Shown piece by piece: positions 306-34,606 of a DNA stretch of 64,000 nucleotides; position 1 is the first letter of the stretch, and every line of letters starts with the position of its first letter. The stretch is from Rhodohalobacter mucosus (GTDB lineage: Bacteria; Bacteroidota; Rhodothermia; Balneolales; Balneolaceae), in contig NZ_QGGB01000005.1 of the NCBI RefSeq assembly GCF_003150675.1, positions 372,001 to 436,000 on the forward strand. The letters are read 5' to 3'. The position numbers and the translations under genes were made by a program. The notes beneath the pieces are model-generated. The model had not been told where the DNA came from. It saw only the letters and a program-made list of their open reading frames with translations, and searched no databases.

Positions 306-340
306 TGTGTAGGGAAAAGGAGTCCTGAGTGTTGAGTGAA

Positions 341-375
341 AAGGCAGAGGGCAAAAGGCAAAAGGCAGAAGGCAA
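341..375. repeat. Heptanucleotide tandem array, unit AAGGCAA (5 copies)
   Basis: Five back-to-back 7-bp units (AAGGCAG, AGGGCAA, AAGGCAA, AAGGCAG, AAGGCAA) start 36 bp after the plsC-like stop codon. The same heptamer recurs as a longer array near 3454. It is noncoding on both strands as far as can be seen. Confidence 0.9.
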
Positions 376-462
376 AAGTGTGACGGGGAAATGATCTCAG
401 ACTGGTGATATGCGATTTATGATCTCAGAAAAATTACCCATCATACACCTCGCAGCGTGCTG

Positions 463-1033: not shown

Positions 1034-1122
1034 AATATTCCCCTGAACCTGATTATCCCTGTTTGAAGCATATGTTCATCCTTAATGGTAAAAAATATAT
1101 CTGATTATATTGTGAATTTTTG

Positions 1123-1223
1123 GAGTTTAGAGTATTGAGTATTGAGTATTGAGCAGGGAGTTGCCAGTTGTTGATGGTTGGTTGTTGTCTGCACCCTGCA
1201 CCATGAACCCCGCACTCTGAACA
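1123..1223. repeat. Composite heptanucleotide array (GAGTATT, then degenerate heptads)
   Basis: Units GAGTTTA, GAGTATT x3 and GAGCAGG (1123-1157) are followed, after a 3-bp phase shift, by nine further heptads: TTGCCAG, TTGTTGA, TGGTTGG, TTGTTGT, CTGCACC x2, ATGAACC, CCGCACT, CTGAACA. The composition changes along the array but the spacing stays 7 bp. The array fills most of the 307-bp spacer 1034-1340, in which I see no gene. Confidence 0.8.
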
Positions 1224-2614: not shown

Positions 2615-3325
2615 TCAGACTCCCAGGCTTAAGCGGGCACCCGTCTTAATCACATCCGATTCGAAGCCCTTTCGCAGCCTTTCATATTCCATGCGATTGC
2701 TTGCAGCGAGCAGTTTCTGTGCGTGATTCCAAACCTCCTCTCTCCAGCCGGTGATGAGCCGGGAAATAAGGTATTCATCAAGTCTTCCCATTCCTGCATC
2801 CAGCCAGCCCATGATCGGATCTTCCTTACACAGAATATCATCCTGAACTTTATCAATAGTTTCTGAGATGATGTCATTTACCCTGCAATGATCCTGGTAG
2901 CGTAACTCTTTCCTGCTGGAAGTCAGCTCCTGCCACTCGGGATGCAGCATGTCGTAAAGGGTAAGTACCAGGTCGTAGTTGATGTGTGCATTAACGCCCA
3001 TAAGCAGATATTGCAGGGAATGCAGCTTCTTGCTTCGGGTAGCTTCGTGTACCTGCAGCCATACCGCGGGAGCACGGTTTTTCCGCCTGTTACACTGAAG
3101 GCCCCTGAAATAGTAATCTGCAAAATGATGAAGCAGCCTTTCAACCCACTTTCGGTCCTGAAAATACCCATCCTCAATAGCTGCCATCATGTTGGCGGTC
3201 ATCATGCGATAGCAGCCCAGGAAAATACACCTGCGGTCTCCAAGCTGCTTCCAGCCGGTCAGGGTTTGATCCATTCGGGTAAGTACATCATGCTGCTGAA
3301 ATGTGTTTGGGTTTGATATATTCAA
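2615..3325 (-). CDS. DUF5995 family protein
   Basis: A 236-residue soluble protein with the DUF5995 hallmark stretches: a DRRCIFLGCYRMMT segment near residue 30, KWVERLLHHFADYYF near residue 60, and LLMGVNAHINYDLVL near residue 108. The family is widespread and helical, and its function is unknown. The conserved NAHINYDL motif suggests a buried active or metal site, but that is inference. The frame opens with TTG at 3325. An ATG at 3274 would remove a helix (QHDVLTRMDQ) that matches the family N-terminus, so the TTG start is preferred. No partner gene is apparent. Confidence 0.75.
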   Translation of the reverse strand: MNISNPNTFQQHDVLTRMDQTLTGWKQLGDRRCIFLGCYRMMTANMMAAIEDGYFQDRKWVERLLHHFADYYFRGLQCNRRKNRAPAVWLQVHEATRSKKLHSLQYLLMGVNAHINYDLVLTLYDMLHPEWQELTSSRKELRYQDHCRVNDIISETIDKVQDDILCKEDPIMGWLDAGMGRLDEYLISRLITGWREEVWNHAQKLLAASNRMEYERLRKGFESDVIKTGARLSLGV

Positions 3326-3453: not shown

Positions 3454-3790
3454 GGCAAAAGGCAAAGGGCAAAAGGCAAAAGGCAAAAGGCAAAAGGCAA
3501 AAGGCAAAAATGAGAAGGCAGTCTTGAGTATTGAGTATTGAGCATTAAGCATTAAAATTTTACCCTGCCTTTGTTGATTGTTGATTGTTGATTGTTGATT
3601 GTTGATTGCTGACTGCTGCCTATTAACCTCAGAAAGAATTTCTGAGCTGCCCGTTGTAGCCTGTAGCCTGTAGCCTGTAGCCTGTAGCCTGTAGCCAGAG
3701 AATCTCAGATTGGGCCCGAAGTCTCGGGAGCGAACTCTGATCTCTGAAATATTTTCTGCCACGTTCCTTGAACCTTCAACCTTGAACCCG
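3454..3790. repeat. Compound heptanucleotide repeat block with five different 7-bp units
   Basis: This block fills most of the 468-bp gap 3326-3793. In order it holds GGCAAAA in about 8 copies (3454-3510), GAGTATT/GAGCATT/AAGCATT (about 3525-3552), TTGATTG in five copies decaying to CTGACTG (3574-3618), and TTGTAGC plus CTGTAGC x5 (3654-3695). CCTTGAA/CCTTCAA/CCTTGAA (about 3768-3788) ends against the stop codon of the next gene. An inverted fragment of the dispersed repeat core (CCCGAAGTCTCGGGAGCG) lies at 3712-3731. No gene is seen here. Confidence 0.9.
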
Positions 3791-13423: not shown

Positions 13424-15481
13424 ATGAAACCTATTTTTTGGGTATTTGGACTATTTTACTTTATTCCTTCGCTGGCCTTCTCTCAAAACACAGCTGAAAA
13501 GACTGAACCTGTATTCGAACAGGTGCTTTCTTTAAAAAACCCGGGTTCGGTACAGATATCTCCGGACGGTCGACACGTATTGTACTCCGTCTCATCAGCG
13601 GAATGGTCTGAGAACCGCTATGATTCGGAATTATGGTTATCTAAAAACGGCGGAGAGCCATTTCCCCTGACGCATAACAGCAGCGGCTCAAGCAGCAGCG
13701 GCACCTGGTCGGATGATGGCAAGTGGATCCTCTTTATCCGGAATGTGGACGGAAAGAACACGATGTTTGTGATCTCTCCGGATGGGGGAGAGGCGTTCCC
13801 ACTGTCATATATTGATAAGAGCATTCAGAGCTTCGACCTCTCTCCAGACGGGAAAACCCTTGCCTTTTTATCTCAGCAGGAGCAGCCTGAAGCGCGGAAA
13901 ACCATGGAGGAACGCTTTGGTAAATTTGCAGAGGATGATACCGACTATCTGCTCAACCGGCTCTATACCGTGGCATTCAATCCCCATTTTACCCGGTCGC
14001 ATCAGCAACCGTGTGAACAGGACTCAACCTATACCATGTGTCCGGAAGCCCCGGAAGTAGTGCCTCATCTCGAAGAAGCTGAATTTACCATAACAGGCAT
14101 AGAATGGTCACCTGCAGGTGACAGGATTGCAGTTGATCATCAGCCCAATCCGATCATCACCAGCTTTTTGGAATCCGACATTGCCATCTACGATCCTGAG
14201 ACAGGGCAGCTGGACAAGGTTGTCCAAAATGCTTCATCGGATGGATTCAGTGTATGGTCGCCCGATGGCAGCAGATTTGCCTACACCAGTAGTGTGGATA
14301 ACGACAGCAGTAATTTCTACGCCAACAACAGATATTTTATTTATGATTTGGGCAGCGGCGAATCGAGGGAAGTTGCCCGACAATTTGATGAAAACCTGAA
14401 TATTGCGGCCTGGAGCAACGACGGCATCTATGCTACAGCCTGGCAAAAAACCAGGCGGCCTGTCTATCGCCTTGATCCTCAAACCGGGTCTGTTGAAATG
14501 TTTTCCGGTTCAAAGAGGCTCGTGTATGGCCTGTCCTTCTCCAAAGATGGTTCAAAGTACGCTATGAGCGCACGTGACGGGGATGAAATAAATGAAGTTT
14601 ATCTGACGGACTTGGAAGGTACGAACAGCCGCAAGCTGACGGATTTTAATGATCAGATTACGGGCTGGAAAACTGTGGACAGTGAAGTGATCAGCTGGAA
14701 CAGCCGTGATGGTGTTGAAATCGAAGGGATCTTACATAAACCTCTTGATTATAATCCGGATCAGAAATATCCATTGCTGGTTGTTATCCATGGCGGGCCG
14801 ACCGGCATTTCATTGCCCTCGCCTGTGCCCGGCTACGTTTATCCCATTGTGCAGTGGGTAAATAAAGGAGCCCTGGTACTTGAACCGAATTACAGGGGAT
14901 CGGCAGGATATGGGGAAGAGTTTCGCTCACTGAATGTCAGGAACCTTGGGGTCGGGGATGCATGGGATGTACTTTCCGGGGTGGATCACCTGATAGAGCA
15001 GGGCGTTGCGGATTCTACAAAACTGGGATCCATGGGATGGAGCCAGGGCGGCTACATATCCGCTTTTCTGACGACATGGTCGAACCGGTTTGAGGCGGTA
15101 AGCGTGGGGGCGGGGATCTCCAACTGGATGACCTATTACGTAAATACGGACATTCATCCGTTCACCCGTCAGTATCTGAAAGCGACACCCTGGGAAGATC
15201 TGGAGATCTATGAACGGACGTCACCCATGACCTACATCAACAACGCATCCACGCCTACGCTTATTCAGCACGGAGAGTTCGACCGCAGGGTTCCCACTCC
15301 GAATGCCTATGAGTTGTACCAGGGCCTTCAGGATGTGGGTGTGGAGTCACAGCTTATTATATACGAAGGGTTTGGGCACGGCATCAACAAGCCCAGGGAA
15401 AGGCTGGCCGCCACCTGGCATAACTGGATCTGGTTCAACAAATACATCTGGGGCGAGGAAATAGAAATGCCGCTGGAATGA
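13424..15481 (+). CDS. S9 family prolyl oligopeptidase-type serine peptidase (secreted)
   Basis: A 685-residue protein with a signal peptide (about residues 1-20, ending SLAFSQ). It has a seven-bladed WD40/TolB-like propeller (about 30-420, with many SPDGxxL/WSPDG repeats) and a C-terminal alpha/beta-hydrolase domain. The catalytic Ser lies in GWSQGGY (about 540), the Asp in HGEFDRRVP (about 619) and the His in EGFGHG (about 651). It belongs to the S9C dipeptidyl/acylaminoacyl peptidase group, which trims peptides in the periplasm for nutrition. Length and layout are normal. It is monocistronic, with the tRNA-Leu gene on the opposite strand downstream. Confidence 0.93.
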   Translation: MKPIFWVFGLFYFIPSLAFSQNTAEKTEPVFEQVLSLKNPGSVQISPDGRHVLYSVSSAEWSENRYDSELWLSKNGGEPFPLTHNSSGSSSSGTWSDDGKWILFIRNVDGKNTMFVISPDGGEAFPLSYIDKSIQSFDLSPDGKTLAFLSQQEQPEARKTMEERFGKFAEDDTDYLLNRLYTVAFNPHFTRSHQQPCEQDSTYTMCPEAPEVVPHLEEAEFTITGIEWSPAGDRIAVDHQPNPIITSFLESDIAIYDPETGQLDKVVQNASSDGFSVWSPDGSRFAYTSSVDNDSSNFYANNRYFIYDLGSGESREVARQFDENLNIAAWSNDGIYATAWQKTRRPVYRLDPQTGSVEMFSGSKRLVYGLSFSKDGSKYAMSARDGDEINEVYLTDLEGTNSRKLTDFNDQITGWKTVDSEVISWNSRDGVEIEGILHKPLDYNPDQKYPLLVVIHGGPTGISLPSPVPGYVYPIVQWVNKGALVLEPNYRGSAGYGEEFRSLNVRNLGVGDAWDVLSGVDHLIEQGVADSTKLGSMGWSQGGYISAFLTTWSNRFEAVSVGAGISNWMTYYVNTDIHPFTRQYLKATPWEDLEIYERTSPMTYINNASTPTLIQHGEFDRRVPTPNAYELYQGLQDVGVESQLIIYEGFGHGINKPRERLAATWHNWIWFNKYIWGEEIEMPLE

Positions 15482-15553
15482 TCTGAATCAGCTGGCCCCG
15501 GGCTATTTCGGCTTCTCGTGCCGCTGATCATGAGATGGGCATTTTAAATCGAC

Positions 15554-15581
15554 AATTATCAATCAACAATCATCAATAAAA
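15554..15581. repeat. Short degenerate heptad array (CAATNAN type)
   Basis: Four 7-bp units (CAATTAT, CAATCAA, CAATCAT, CAATAAA) lie between the S9 peptidase stop and the 3' end of the tRNA. Confidence 0.55.
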
Positions 15582-15584
15582 AAG

Positions 15585-15668
15585 TACCCGGGAAGGGACT
15601 CGAACCCTTACGACATCGCTGCCATCGGATTTTGAATCCGACGCGTCTACCAATTCCGCCACCCGGGC
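15585..15668 (-). tRNA. tRNA-Leu(CAA)
   Basis: An 84-nt class II tRNA read on the minus strand. The acceptor stem is GCCCGGG / CCCGGGT with a G-U end pair. The D-loop has GGTAGACG. The anticodon stem TCGGA / TCCGA holds the loop TTCAAAA, giving anticodon CAA. A long variable arm and GGTTCGAGTCC in the T arm follow. CCA is not encoded, and the discriminator base is A. A T-run follows directly. It reads UUG codons. Confidence 0.95.
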
Positions 15669-15910
15669 ATGGTTTGTACTAATGATGGCAATCTCAAATA
15701 TACGGAGCAGGTTGTTTAATAGAAATGGTTGTATTGATCTTGAGTCTTGAGAAGTGAGAAGGCAAAAGGGAGAAGTGAGACGTCAAACGTCAGACGTGAG
15801 ATGGGAAACTGAGACTGGCGACTGGCGATTGAAAATGTGCGACTTGTGATTGTGGACCTCAGTATTGTTGTCAATATTGCCCGCTGAAGCCTGTAGACTG
15901 CTGCGAGCAG

Positions 15911-15971
15911 TTCACTTCGTGGGAATCGCCTGCGGCTCGGAGCGCAGTCCCGAGACTTCGGGAAAGCCTGA
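15911..15971 (+). repeat. Dispersed ~61-bp intergenic repeat, copy 2
   Basis: Nearly identical to 463-523 (two differences seen: TGCGG for TTCGG, and CAGTCCC for CAGTTCC). The second change makes the CTCGGAGCGCAGTCCCGAG core no worse as a hairpin. It is followed by CG-rich inverted stretches (CCACGGGGAATACCCCG, then ATCCCCATGGGAAATTCCCC) that look like more palindromic units. It lies in the 540-bp spacer between the tRNA and the LolC-like gene, which also carries degenerate heptads (GACGTCA type at about 15778-15798, GACTGGC x2 at about 15814-15827) and no gene that I can support. Confidence 0.85.
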
Positions 15972-16105
15972 AGCCCTGTCCACGGGGAATACCCCGAAGG
16001 GATCCCCATGGGAAATTCCCCGCTCGGCTGTGTCGACCTTTGGACTAGGATTGCGACAATAAAAAGACTGTTTGCAATAAGGATAAAAATTCTAGCAGCT
16101 TTTAG

Positions 16106-16203
16106 TTGAACCTTAAACCTTAAACCTTAAACCTTAAACCTTAAACCTTAAACCTTAAACCTTGAACCTTGAACCTTGAACCTTGAACCTTGAACCTTGA
16201 ATC
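16106..16203. repeat. Telomere-like heptanucleotide array TTAAACC/TTGAACC (about 14 copies)
   Basis: Fourteen uninterrupted 7-bp units: one TTGAACC, seven TTAAACC, five TTGAACC and a partial TTGAATC. They end 5 bp before the stop codon of the LolC/E-like gene. The clean switch from TTAAACC to TTGAACC suggests spread of a point variant by slippage or unequal exchange. Confidence 0.97.
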
Positions 16204-16208
16204 CCACC

Positions 16209-17435
16209 TCACTTTCCGAACGACAACACGGCAACAGGATCCGTTTTGGCCGCAATGCGGGCCGGAAGCCAGGAAGCGAGTGTACAGAGAAGAATGGTGA
16301 CTGCACTGACAATCACAAAGTCGAGCAGATGCGGCTCAACGGGTACGGTGCTCATGTAGTAGTTTTCCTCAGAAAGCGGAATAATCTGGTAGTTGATCTG
16401 CAGCCAGAAAAATACCATTGCAATTCCGGTACCCATCAGAAGTCCCGATACGGCGACATAAAGTCCCTCCAAAAGAAAAACCTGTCGTATAGAACGGCTT
16501 CTGGCCCCGATTGTCTTCAAAATACCAATGTCCTTGACCCGCTCGAGTACCATCATCAGCACCGTGCCAATCAGGTTGAAAGCGGCAACGACAATCATAA
16601 CCGCGATCACAAAAGGGATCGTCTCTTCCTGCAGATCCACCCATGCGAAAATATTGCGGTATCGCTGGTATACATTTTCAGTTACAAAAGGGAAGCGTGT
16701 ATCATCACGAACCGATGCATATACGGAGCGTATATTATCCATATTCACCGCATTGATATCGATCATGCTCGCTTCAAGCGTTCCAAGCTCAAACAGGCGT
16801 CGAACCGGCTGAATATGCGTCAATGCAAAATTGTCATCAAATCGTGCGATTCCGGTCTGATAGACGCCTGTGAGCCGGAACTGGCTGATCTCGGGACTAT
16901 TGAGGGGGGAGGGGAGTCCGTCCAGCGCATAAACGGTGATGCGGTCTCCGATCTCTGCGCCAAGAGTTTGGGTGAGTGAGCTGCCGAGTATGATGCCGTG
17001 CAGCCCGTCCTGCTGCTTACTGATGTCGTAGGTTCCTTCCGATATGTAGTCCCGGAGCCGGGTTACATCGCCTTCGCCGGGTACTCCCTTGATCCCTGTA
17101 CCGCTCACTTCGCCTGGCCCCTGGATCATAACCTGACCCAAAATTACCGGCTGTGCTACATCCACTCCCGGCATGTCGCCTATATGAACACTGAGCGTAT
17201 CCGACCGGAATATGGGATCATTCATAAACGAATGCACCGTCACATGCGGCGCAAATCCCAGTATTTTCTCATTGATGGTGGATTTAAACCCGTGCACGAT
17301 CGACAGTGAAATAAGCAGTCCCGCCGAGCCGATGGCAACCCCCCCGATGGCCATCAGCTTGATGAACGATAAAAAACGGGATTCACGCTTCGATCCCCAG
17401 AAATAGCGTCGCGCAATGTAGGCGGTGAAATTCAT
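16209..17435 (-). CDS. ABC transporter permease of the LolC/LolE (FtsX-MacB) family
   Basis: A 408-residue protein with the family layout. One N-terminal membrane helix (about residues 25-50, following RYFWGSKRESRFLSFIKL) precedes a large periplasmic domain (about 55-265). Three C-terminal helices follow (about 272-298, 320-348 and 372-394), with the coupling-helix motif LMMVLERVKDIGILKTIGA. Such permeases move lipoproteins from the inner membrane to the LolA carrier, powered by a LolD ATPase. No LolD is adjacent, so the ATPase must be encoded elsewhere. Which of LolC or LolE it corresponds to cannot be told; many Bacteroidota have a single LolC/E-type protein. Confidence 0.88.
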   Translation of the reverse strand: MNFTAYIARRYFWGSKRESRFLSFIKLMAIGGVAIGSAGLLISLSIVHGFKSTINEKILGFAPHVTVHSFMNDPIFRSDTLSVHIGDMPGVDVAQPVILGQVMIQGPGEVSGTGIKGVPGEGDVTRLRDYISEGTYDISKQQDGLHGIILGSSLTQTLGAEIGDRITVYALDGLPSPLNSPEISQFRLTGVYQTGIARFDDNFALTHIQPVRRLFELGTLEASMIDINAVNMDNIRSVYASVRDDTRFPFVTENVYQRYRNIFAWVDLQEETIPFVIAVMIVVAAFNLIGTVLMMVLERVKDIGILKTIGARSRSIRQVFLLEGLYVAVSGLLMGTGIAMVFFWLQINYQIIPLSEENYYMSTVPVEPHLLDFVIVSAVTILLCTLASWLPARIAAKTDPVAVLSFGK

Positions 17436-17700: not shown

Positions 17701-17735
17701 TGTAACCTGAAACCTTAACCGTCAAACCTGTAACG
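17701..17735. repeat. Degenerate heptad array (TGTAACC type)
   Basis: Units TGTAACC, TGAAACC, TTAACCG, TCAAACC, TGTAACG end 15 bp before the lysS stop codon. The sequence is related to the complement of the array at 17479-17513. Confidence 0.65.
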
Positions 17736-17750
17736 CCAAAGCGCTCTGCG

Positions 17751-19280
17751 CTACCCCTCCGGTTTCATTTGCGGAAAGAAGAGCACATCGCGTATGGAGT
17801 CTGAATCGGTCATAATCATCGCAAGGCGGTCGATACCGATACCGATACCGGCGGTTGGCGGCATGCCGTATTCTATGGCTCGCAGGAAGTCTTCATCCAC
17901 GGTCATCGCTTCCTCGTCGCCGCCGGCTCTAAGGCGGGCCTGTTCTTCGAATCGCTCGCGTTGGTCTACCGGATCGTTGAGCTCTGTAAAGGCGTTTGCG
18001 ATCTCCTTACCGTTGCAGATCGCTTCAAAACGCTCAACAAGCCCTTCCTTGCTGCGGTGTTTCTTGGCCAGCGGACTCATCTCAACGGGGTAGTCTGTGA
18101 TGAATGTGGGCTGAATCAATTTGGGTTCAACGGTTTCACCAAAAATTTCATCTATCAGCTTTCCTTTGCCCATGCTTTTATCCACTTCAATGTGGAGATC
18201 CTTTGCGATGTTGCGAATCTCACTTTCCGATTTGCCGGAAAGATCGTGGCCGGTCTCTTTCTCAATGGCTTCGTACATGGGGATTCGGGGCCAGGGTGCC
18301 TTGAAATCAATTTCATGTTCACCCACGGTTACGCTGGTTGAACCGTGCAGCTTCAGGGCAACATGCTCGATCATGTTCTCCATGAAGCTCATCATCCAGT
18401 TGTAGTCTTTCCACGCCACATAGAGTTCCACCTGCGTGAACTCCGGATTGTGAAAGCGGGAAAGTCCTTCATTCCGGAAGTCTTTTGAAAACTCATATAC
18501 CCCGTCAAAACCGCCTACGATCAATCGTTTCAGATAGAGCTCATTGGCAATACGAAGGTAAAGGTCGATATCAAGAGCGTTGAGGTGTGTTTTAAAAGGC
18601 CTTGCCGAGGCTCCCCCGTAAATTGGCTGCAGGATGGGAGTTTCCACCTCCAGGTATCCGCGCTCATTCATAAACTCCCGCATTGACTGTACCATGTGCG
18701 TGCGTTTGATGAAGGCATCCTTGACATCCGGATTGACGATCAGATCCACATATCGCTGCCGGTACCGCATCTCCTTATCCGAGAATGCGTCAAAGGTCTT
18801 TGTTTCACCCTCTTCGGTCTCCACTTCCTTGGGGGTTGGAATCGGGCGAAGGGTTTTGCCTAAAAATTCGAACTCTTCAGCGTGAATGGTGGTCTCGCCG
18901 GTTCGCGTTTTAAAAACAAATCCGCGGATGCCGATAAAGTCGCCGATGTCGGTGAGCTTCTTGAATACGGTATTGTACTCCTCGGTGCCCACGTCGTCGC
19001 GGCGAATGTAGATCTGGATGATGCCGCCGGAATCCTGAAGCGTAAAAAAAGAGGCCTTTCCCATGATACGCCGCGTCATTACACGGCCTGCAACGGATAC
19101 ACGCTCTGCGCCTTCCGGTTCCCCGGCGATCAGCGTCTCTTCATTCTCCAGAATATCCTTTGAAGTATGGGTGACATCATATTCATAAGGGTAGGGGTTG
19201 ATGTCAAGTTCCCTGAGCTGCTCAAGTTTGGATTTTCGGATCTGTTGTTGTTCACTTAGCGAGGGTTCAGCCTTCGTCAT
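17751..19280 (-). CDS. lysS: Lysyl-tRNA synthetase, class II
   Basis: A 509-residue enzyme that charges tRNA-Lys. The N-terminal OB-fold anticodon-binding domain (about 60-150) contains [21 protein letters not shown]. The class II catalytic core has motif 2 ([19 protein letters not shown], about 265) and motif 3 ([13 protein letters not shown], near residue 485). Length matches bacterial LysS. It is transcribed alone, divergent from the phosphopantetheinyl transferase operon. Confidence 0.98.
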
Positions 19281-34129: not shown

Positions 34130-34606
34130 CACTCACTCTTCGCGCCTCTGTGGTGAGTCATGCATTTTCATCGTCTTCCCCTCCATTTCTCTGTGCTTCC
34201 GTGGCCACCATCACATCCAATCATTTGTTGAGAAACCTTCCACAGACACCCCCTCATTTCTCTGCGCCCTCCGTGCCTCTGCGGTGAGTCATGCATTCTC
34301 ATCGTCTTCCCCTCCATTTCTCTGTGCTTCCGTGGCTATCATCACATCCAATAATTTGTAAAGAAACCTTCCACAGGCACCCCCTCATTTCTCGGCGCCC
34401 TCCGCGCCACTGCAGTGAGTCATGCATTCTCATCGTCTTCTCCTCCCTTTCTCCGTGCCTCTGCGGTGAACGCCCTCGTCATCTTTCGTCTTTTTCTCCG
34501 TGCTTCCGTGGCCACCATCAAATCCATTTAATTGTACTGACACCTTCCACAGACACCCTCTCATTTCTCTGCGCCCTCCGCGCCTCTGCGGTGAACTCTT
34601 CTTTTA
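34130..34606. repeat. Noncoding tandem array, 131-bp unit, about 3.5 copies
   Basis: The landmark GTGAGTCATGCATT begins at 34153, 34284 and 34415, a spacing of exactly 131 bp. Partial copies extend to about 34606, where the unit ends in GTGAAC. Each unit contains two relatives of CTCCGTGCCTCTGCGGTGA or TCTGTGCTTCCGTGGCCACC about 60 bp apart. It is C+T-rich on the plus strand. Short frames cross it but show repeat-driven, unlikely protein sequences. Confidence 0.9.

Follow-up and report, generated by a model that had tools for sequence, protein, structure and literature searches.

Heterocystous cyanobacteria carry dispersed heptad arrays between their genes, known as STRR heptads. Heptads are also prominent among the LSSRs, for which, according to passages in two later papers, the 7-bp unit is the most abundant, the location intergenic, and the distribution patchy among close species (Mrazek 2007, via PMC4679880 and PMC4692102). 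In the excerpted text of Rehm et al. 2015 (PMC4692102), G-quadruplex heptads of the GGGNATC type from two Xanthomonas genomes and one Nostoc genome lie closer to the 5' ORF on the G-rich strand, whatever the direction of that ORF, and coding-strand GGGNATC heptads are reported within 50 bp past stop codons. Excerpts of MacGregor 2015 (PMC4679880) describe TAACTGA heptads as intergenic direct repeats in Beggiatoaceae, Cyanobacteria, and Bacteroidetes, mixed with other heptads in some of the Bacteroidetes. Finally, repeat synthesis by DRT10 and telomerase is portrayed, in part of a further source, as tandem-repeat DNA being made outward from an end (PMC12632851).

The heptad array analyzed here, which lies in a 64,000-nucleotide stretch of DNA from a Balneolaceae genome (the window), is an ordinary heptameric SSR with a stop-codon bias. 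Within the scope of our literature search, the strand rule that it follows has no precedent for these words: within the open-licence literature on heptads in Bacteroidetes, in Balneolaceae, and on the G-rich strand, no polarity statement for other words was found.

A heptad array next to the stop codon of a lolC/E-like gene

The array and its neighborhood comprise the following features:

16106 to 16203, plus strand: heptad array, C-rich strand as given; its G-rich GGTTCAA/GGTTTAA strand leaves the lolC stop
16209 to 17435, minus strand: lolC/E-like ABC permease with Pfam FtsX and MacB_PCD domains and full-length relatives
13424 to 15481, plus strand: S9 peptidase gene, facing lolC in convergent orientation; RNA reading through from it would span the array in C-rich form
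15585 to 15668, minus strand: tRNA-Leu in the intergenic region of the array (Rfam RF00005, 59.5 bits; aragorn)
15547 to 15577, plus strand: short degenerate heptads AATCAAC/AATCATC, directly before the tRNA-Leu (TRF)
15748 to 15828, plus strand: degenerate G-rich heptads GAGAAGT, GAGACGT, and GACTGGC, beyond the tRNA-Leu (TRF)

Fourteen heptads make up the array (TRF score 145, 98% matches), in the order one TTGAACC, seven TTAAACC (16113 to 16161), five TTGAACC (16162 to 16196), and one TTGAATC (16197 to 16203), and a gap of 5 bases (16204 to 16208) separates them from the lolC/E-like stop codon (16209 to 16211, minus strand). A preliminary description of the sequence had given the same count and distance but spoke of two homogeneous runs; these runs are in fact flanked by the first TTGAACC unit and the last TTGAATC variant. 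It is plausible that the TTAAACC run arose when a variant differing by one base expanded within the array. A chance origin of the array is excluded, since a three-heptad pattern (at most 2 mismatches) has 13 matches in the window and 0 in each of 100 dinucleotide shuffles. Furthermore, Rfam at the gathering threshold identified the tRNA as the sole RNA family match of the whole window, and an RNA family in the intergenic region of the array was therefore rejected.

The intergenic region of the array also contains a 72-bp GC-rich hairpin element (15900 to 15971, MFE -31.5) with a copy at 452 to 523; it has 28 genome matches, of which 10, itself included, are at least 60 bp long at 81% identity or more, and is a REP- or MITE-like dispersed repeat. 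A second hairpin element, made of small palindromes (15977 to 16046), has 15 whole or partial genome matches and is 93% identical to positions 17938 to 18007 of the sampled stretch L054.

Located right past the stop codon, the array could be taken for a terminator of lolC's own transcript, in line with the effect on transcript ends that the preliminary description considered. This is very unlikely, as the lolC strand folds no better than expected (z -0.97 versus shuffles) and its RNA is rich in G, contrary to a rut-like composition. The stable hairpin with a U-run that defines an intrinsic terminator was not found on the lolC strand. Across the array set, the frequency of terminator-like hairpins up to 80 bp from a stop is not raised by a neighboring array (codirectional, 16% versus 16%; convergent, 12% versus 18%). 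If the array ends any transcript, that of the convergent peptidase gene is likelier than that of lolC itself. A repeat-length switch causing phase variation of lolC or its neighbors is highly unlikely: a long homogeneous array could indeed change in length, but this one lies outside the ORF, past its stop, and housekeeping genes, lysS among them, have heptads beside them as well.

Heptads crowd at stop codons in the genome sample

Further heptad arrays were found in the window:

3766 to 3788, plus strand: CCTTGAA array, 3.3 copies, 5 bases from the CoA-transferase stop (3794); TRF 39
17710 to 17740, plus strand: degenerate heptads, 10 bases from the lysS stop (17751); TRF 39, 83% matches
3454 to 3696, plus strand: island of four heptad words, GGCAAAA, TTGAGTA, TTGTTGA, and TGTAGCC (TRF)
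339 to 378, plus strand: GGCAAAA array approximately 37 bp past a plus-strand stop (TRF)
1118 to 1153, plus strand: GAGTATT array (TRF)

The heptads at the CoA-transferase and lysS stops, to which the preliminary description had drawn attention, are thus present but weaker. A tandem repeat of another kind, with a 131-bp unit in 2.4 copies (91% matches, TRF), occupies positions 34141 to 34458.

The host genome (3.91 Mb, 17 contigs), assigned to the Balneolaceae by the nearest relatives of its lolC/E-like protein, was sampled in the form of the window and 58 further stretches, each of 20 kb, together 1.224 Mb or 31% of the genome, with genes called by our own hexamer model instead of being taken from curated annotation. 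Two stretches, L050 and L052, had been picked for the repeat, while 57 stretches (1.18 Mb) had not. In these 57, 104 period-7 arrays reached a score of at least 10 (95 intergenic, 5 edge, 4 coding), and at a score of at least 12 there were 72 period-7 arrays, while none of the other periods between 3 and 13 exceeded 10. Being tandem 7-bp units longer than chance and mostly intergenic, they qualify as LSSRs, which they resemble in unit, site, and patchiness; beyond what the cited passages say of LSSRs, there are tens of words in this genome, together with a measured crowding at stops and a polarity.

Including L050 and L052, the full sample holds 104 intergenic arrays across 55 intergenic regions, and the independence of these arrays is incomplete, as some islands are copies of one another. 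The 104 arrays comprise 47 distinct words (up to rotation and strand) versus 97.3 expected from random intergenic 7-mers (lowest of 500 draws, 89), indicating that words are reused between sites. After masking, a residual 7-base lattice persists near arrays (lag-7 match 0.301 versus a base of 0.262, z 9.3), which was found neither in array-free regions (z 1.6) nor in relatives (z 0.2). Among individual arrays, a GATGGAC array with approximately 18 perfect heptads at L050 8667 to 8795 lies 17 bp from a start codon.

When only the strongest array of each region was considered, 20 of 55 were located less than 15 bp from a stop codon, as compared to 5.4 under uniform placement; the observed count was reached in 0 of 2,000 simulations. 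This mapping of distances in the genome sample bears out the earlier proposal that heptads prefer gene 3' ends. Start codons showed no excess, with 4 regions under 15 bp versus 2.5 expected (n = 55). In this respect the arrays differ from the TAACTGA heptads of Guaymas Beggiatoaceae, which, according to the excerpts of MacGregor 2015, lie mainly just upstream of starts; both are intergenic direct heptads shared among distant lineages, and the unit at lolC is TTGAACC/TTAAACC instead of TAACTGA.

Orientation of the arrays relative to the nearest ORF

The point that the preliminary description missed is polarity: the G-rich strand of the arrays leads away from the nearest ORF. On the outward strand, which runs 5' to 3' away from the nearest ORF border, G outnumbers C in 50 of 53 regions (with 2 ties); counted by array, it does so in 84 of 99 (with 5 ties). 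This is independent of gene direction, and the overall composition of the outward strand is G 0.326, C 0.146, A 0.272, and T 0.256. With one array per region, polarity holds in 14/14 codirectional regions near a stop, 11/13 codirectional regions near a start, 15/16 convergent regions, and 10/10 divergent regions; under 60 bp from a stop, the counts are 12/12 for codirectional and 15/16 for convergent regions. It is seen across score thresholds (67/77 at 8, 44/47 at 12, 33/36 at 16, and 19/22 at 24), without the window, L050, and L052 (41/44), and when the nearest ORF is required to have at least 200 amino acids (29/31). Moreover, in the 27 regions with at least 2 unbalanced arrays, neighboring arrays switch from G to C on the plus strand 21 times and from C to G once. 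Intergenic period-8 arrays, the sole other tested period with more than 10, did not show the polarity (5/13).

As far as the excerpted text of Rehm et al. goes, the same polarity was reported there for GGGNATC heptads, while the GGG unit itself is absent from the lolC array, in which GGTTCAA/GGTTTAA has only GG runs. Since the words of this genome (GGTTCAA, GAGTATT, GGCAAAA) are mostly devoid of GGG runs, the same polarity arises without a classical G-quadruplex motif.

Two general causes were considered and rejected. A general intergenic skew is present in the 348 array-free regions of the host in a weak form only (+0.034/-0.030), and in low-heptad relatives it is confined to the start side, where divergent regions (+0.032/-0.038) have G-poor leaders. 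An R-loop or purely transcription-coupled bias predicts one sign across codirectional regions, but the sign flips between the stop side and the start side. The crowding at stops together with the near-uniform orientation suggests that the arrays act on, or are shaped by, RNA that crosses gene borders.

RNA entering ORFs over the arrays would resemble Rho-utilisation sites

Because the outward strand is G-rich, RNA that enters an ORF over an array would be rich in C, poor in G, and without structure, which are loosely the features of a Rho-utilisation site. In 78-nt windows, the inward strand contains 24.8 C and 10.3 G (controls, 16.2 and 15.5), and its MFE of -6.6 compares with -13.7 for the outward strand and -13.3 for controls, the inward fold being weaker in 52 of 55 cases; its low G content and lack of structure partly follow from the G/C skew, and these values are not independent evidence. 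YC dinucleotides amount to 0.170 per nt on the inward and 0.048 on the outward strand, and it is only the inward strand that combines the YC-rich, G-poor, and unstructured character of a rut site. For the lolC array, whose plus strand has 27 C and 7 G per 98 bases and, with 16 flanking bases, an RNA MFE of -2.7, the rut-like RNA would be the one entering lolC from the convergent gene, given the outward direction of the G-rich strand. The affected transcript would therefore be that of the S9 peptidase gene and not that of lolC.

Rho is encoded by the host (594 bits, above the cut-off), and matches to Rho were identified in 28 of 28 genomes of the genus, 26 of them above the cut-off. A second, shorter Rho-like protein of the host (G000 C9:98421-99503) scores 418 bits, under the Rho cut-off, and similar second matches occur in most genomes of the genus. 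In Bacillus subtilis, as described in part of a recent source, rut sites are YC-rich and unstructured, and approximately 80% are antisense to genes (PMC12350095).

Our tentative explanation, which we consider somewhat short of an even chance, is that intergenic heptads spread recently in this Balneolaceae lineage and that, most probably, the arrays enable Rho to halt antisense or read-through transcription at ORF borders, or are kept merely in a harmless orientation. Slippage would duplicate 7-base units, and words would be copied between sites; growth may be tolerated up to the stop codon and less so near promoters and leaders; and it would then be through the RNA that orientation is sorted, Rho insulation being the likeliest agent. 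The dependence on distance argues against Rho insulation on the stop side: polarity holds for 40 of 44 arrays within 60 bp of a stop but is lost beyond (8/16). On the start side, it persists at any distance (26/29 beyond 60 bp). Likewise, low-heptad relatives possess Rho, yet the 22 regions analyzed showed no C-rich inward skew at their convergent stops, so that no general need for such a skew is visible.

Heptads in relatives and other lineages

No array was found within 30 bp of the lolC stop in 25 relatives, and a conserved function at this locus was therefore rejected. In 18 of 19 relatives, the next gene past the CoA-transferase stop is a homolog of the window gene at 1891 to 2442, 36 to 434 bp away, whereas in the host the two are separated by an island region of 519 bp together with a DUF5995 gene (2615 to 3274). 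Different heptad words were detected 22 bp past the CoA-transferase stop in one relative (L137) and heptads 7 bp past the stop of the gene following the CoA-transferase in another (L127). These non-orthologous positions indicate that the islands are recent, recurrent additions at gene ends.

The relatives, sampled over a total of 740,494 bases, are also poorer in heptads: nine genomes not chosen for the word yielded 9 arrays in 660 kb, compared to the 104 in 1.18 Mb here, and the pieces of G046 and G047, which were chosen for it, yielded 15. This very uneven abundance among close species and the species-specific sites are what would be expected if slippage made heptads, in many bacteria the most frequent unit of long SSRs according to the excerpts citing Mrazek 2007 (PMC4679880, PMC4692102), and selection only purged them from ORFs, promoters, and leaders, leaving functionless arrays whose polarity would reflect mutation bias or an avoidance of G in leaders. 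Leaders are indeed G-poor in low-heptad relatives as well. We regard this neutral origin as possible, though not probable. G-rich polarity at stops does not follow from neutrality alone, and the relatives lack a skew there; the shared words are left unexplained; and a transcription-coupled bias alone would require one sign throughout a codirectional region, where the sign in fact flips. Given that relatives with Rho and few heptads lack the convergent-stop skew, neutral sorting is nonetheless nearly as likely as Rho insulation.

The outward orientation of the G-rich strand from both borders, with its single G-to-C switch, and the long insertions in place of the short spacers of most relatives, for instance at the CoA-transferase stop, would also fit DNA ends at gene borders being extended 3' by G-rich heptads and then joined, as in telomere addition. 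Such growth is quite unlikely. The RVT_1 reverse transcriptase has 0 matches in the host genome and in the heptad-rich G046, and Ku is absent (0 of 28 genomes), and a telomerase- or DRT-like generator and Ku-type end joining, respectively, were rejected on these grounds; the many different words also argue against a single template. Compared with DRT10 and telomerase, as characterized in the part of the source cited above, the host has no RVT_1 enzyme and offers no evidence of templated addition. The label "telomere-like" in the preliminary description therefore reflects a resemblance only.

Polarity itself recurred weakly in other Bacteroidota, which counts against the Rho explanation. It was recovered in 13 of 17 regions of the genus relatives, including 6 of 6 arrays at less than 30 bp. 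The sequence (CCTTGAA)x4 was found in 4 of 394 sampled genomes, this host included; the other three, Bacteroidota from other families, followed the polarity in 8 of 10 cases (5/5, 2/4, and 1/1). A separate Bernardetia region contradicts it. In a small sample of cyanobacterial plasmids, polarity was not reproduced (4/8, 3 ties), and 5 of 11 cases were located less than 15 bp from a stop versus 2.5 expected; the words studied here also differ from the STRR heptads. A Calditerrivibrio plasmid with nearly balanced words showed polarity in 5 of 8 cases, counted by eye. On this plasmid (L222), near-identical GAACGTTGAACGTA-type heptads precede several called ORF starts by 49 to 73 bp, a spacing that is suggestive of regulation or of duplication. 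Plasmid records with the TTGAACC word (6) or TTGAGTA (5) were of little use, and a plasmid search with GGGGATT returned 0 records. Polarity is thus well documented for one genome, with support from a few others; on present evidence, it is not a general rule.

Significance of the strand rule

A far-reaching possibility, speculative and improbable in our judgment, is that a single polarity law, with the G-rich strand leading away from every gene border, applies in heptad-rich bacteria because a directional process resembling telomere addition, not RVT_1-based in this host, would write their intergenic DNA outward from the ends of genes; this DNA would then be kept as a strand-specific transcription insulator. 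Heptad repeats are the most frequent long tandem repeat of many bacterial genomes and, to our knowledge, lack an accepted function. With a strand rule that applies to many unrelated words and in all gene arrangements, this "junk" becomes a testable question: RNA entering genes may select the heptads, as in Rho insulation, or intergenic DNA may grow directionally from gene ends.
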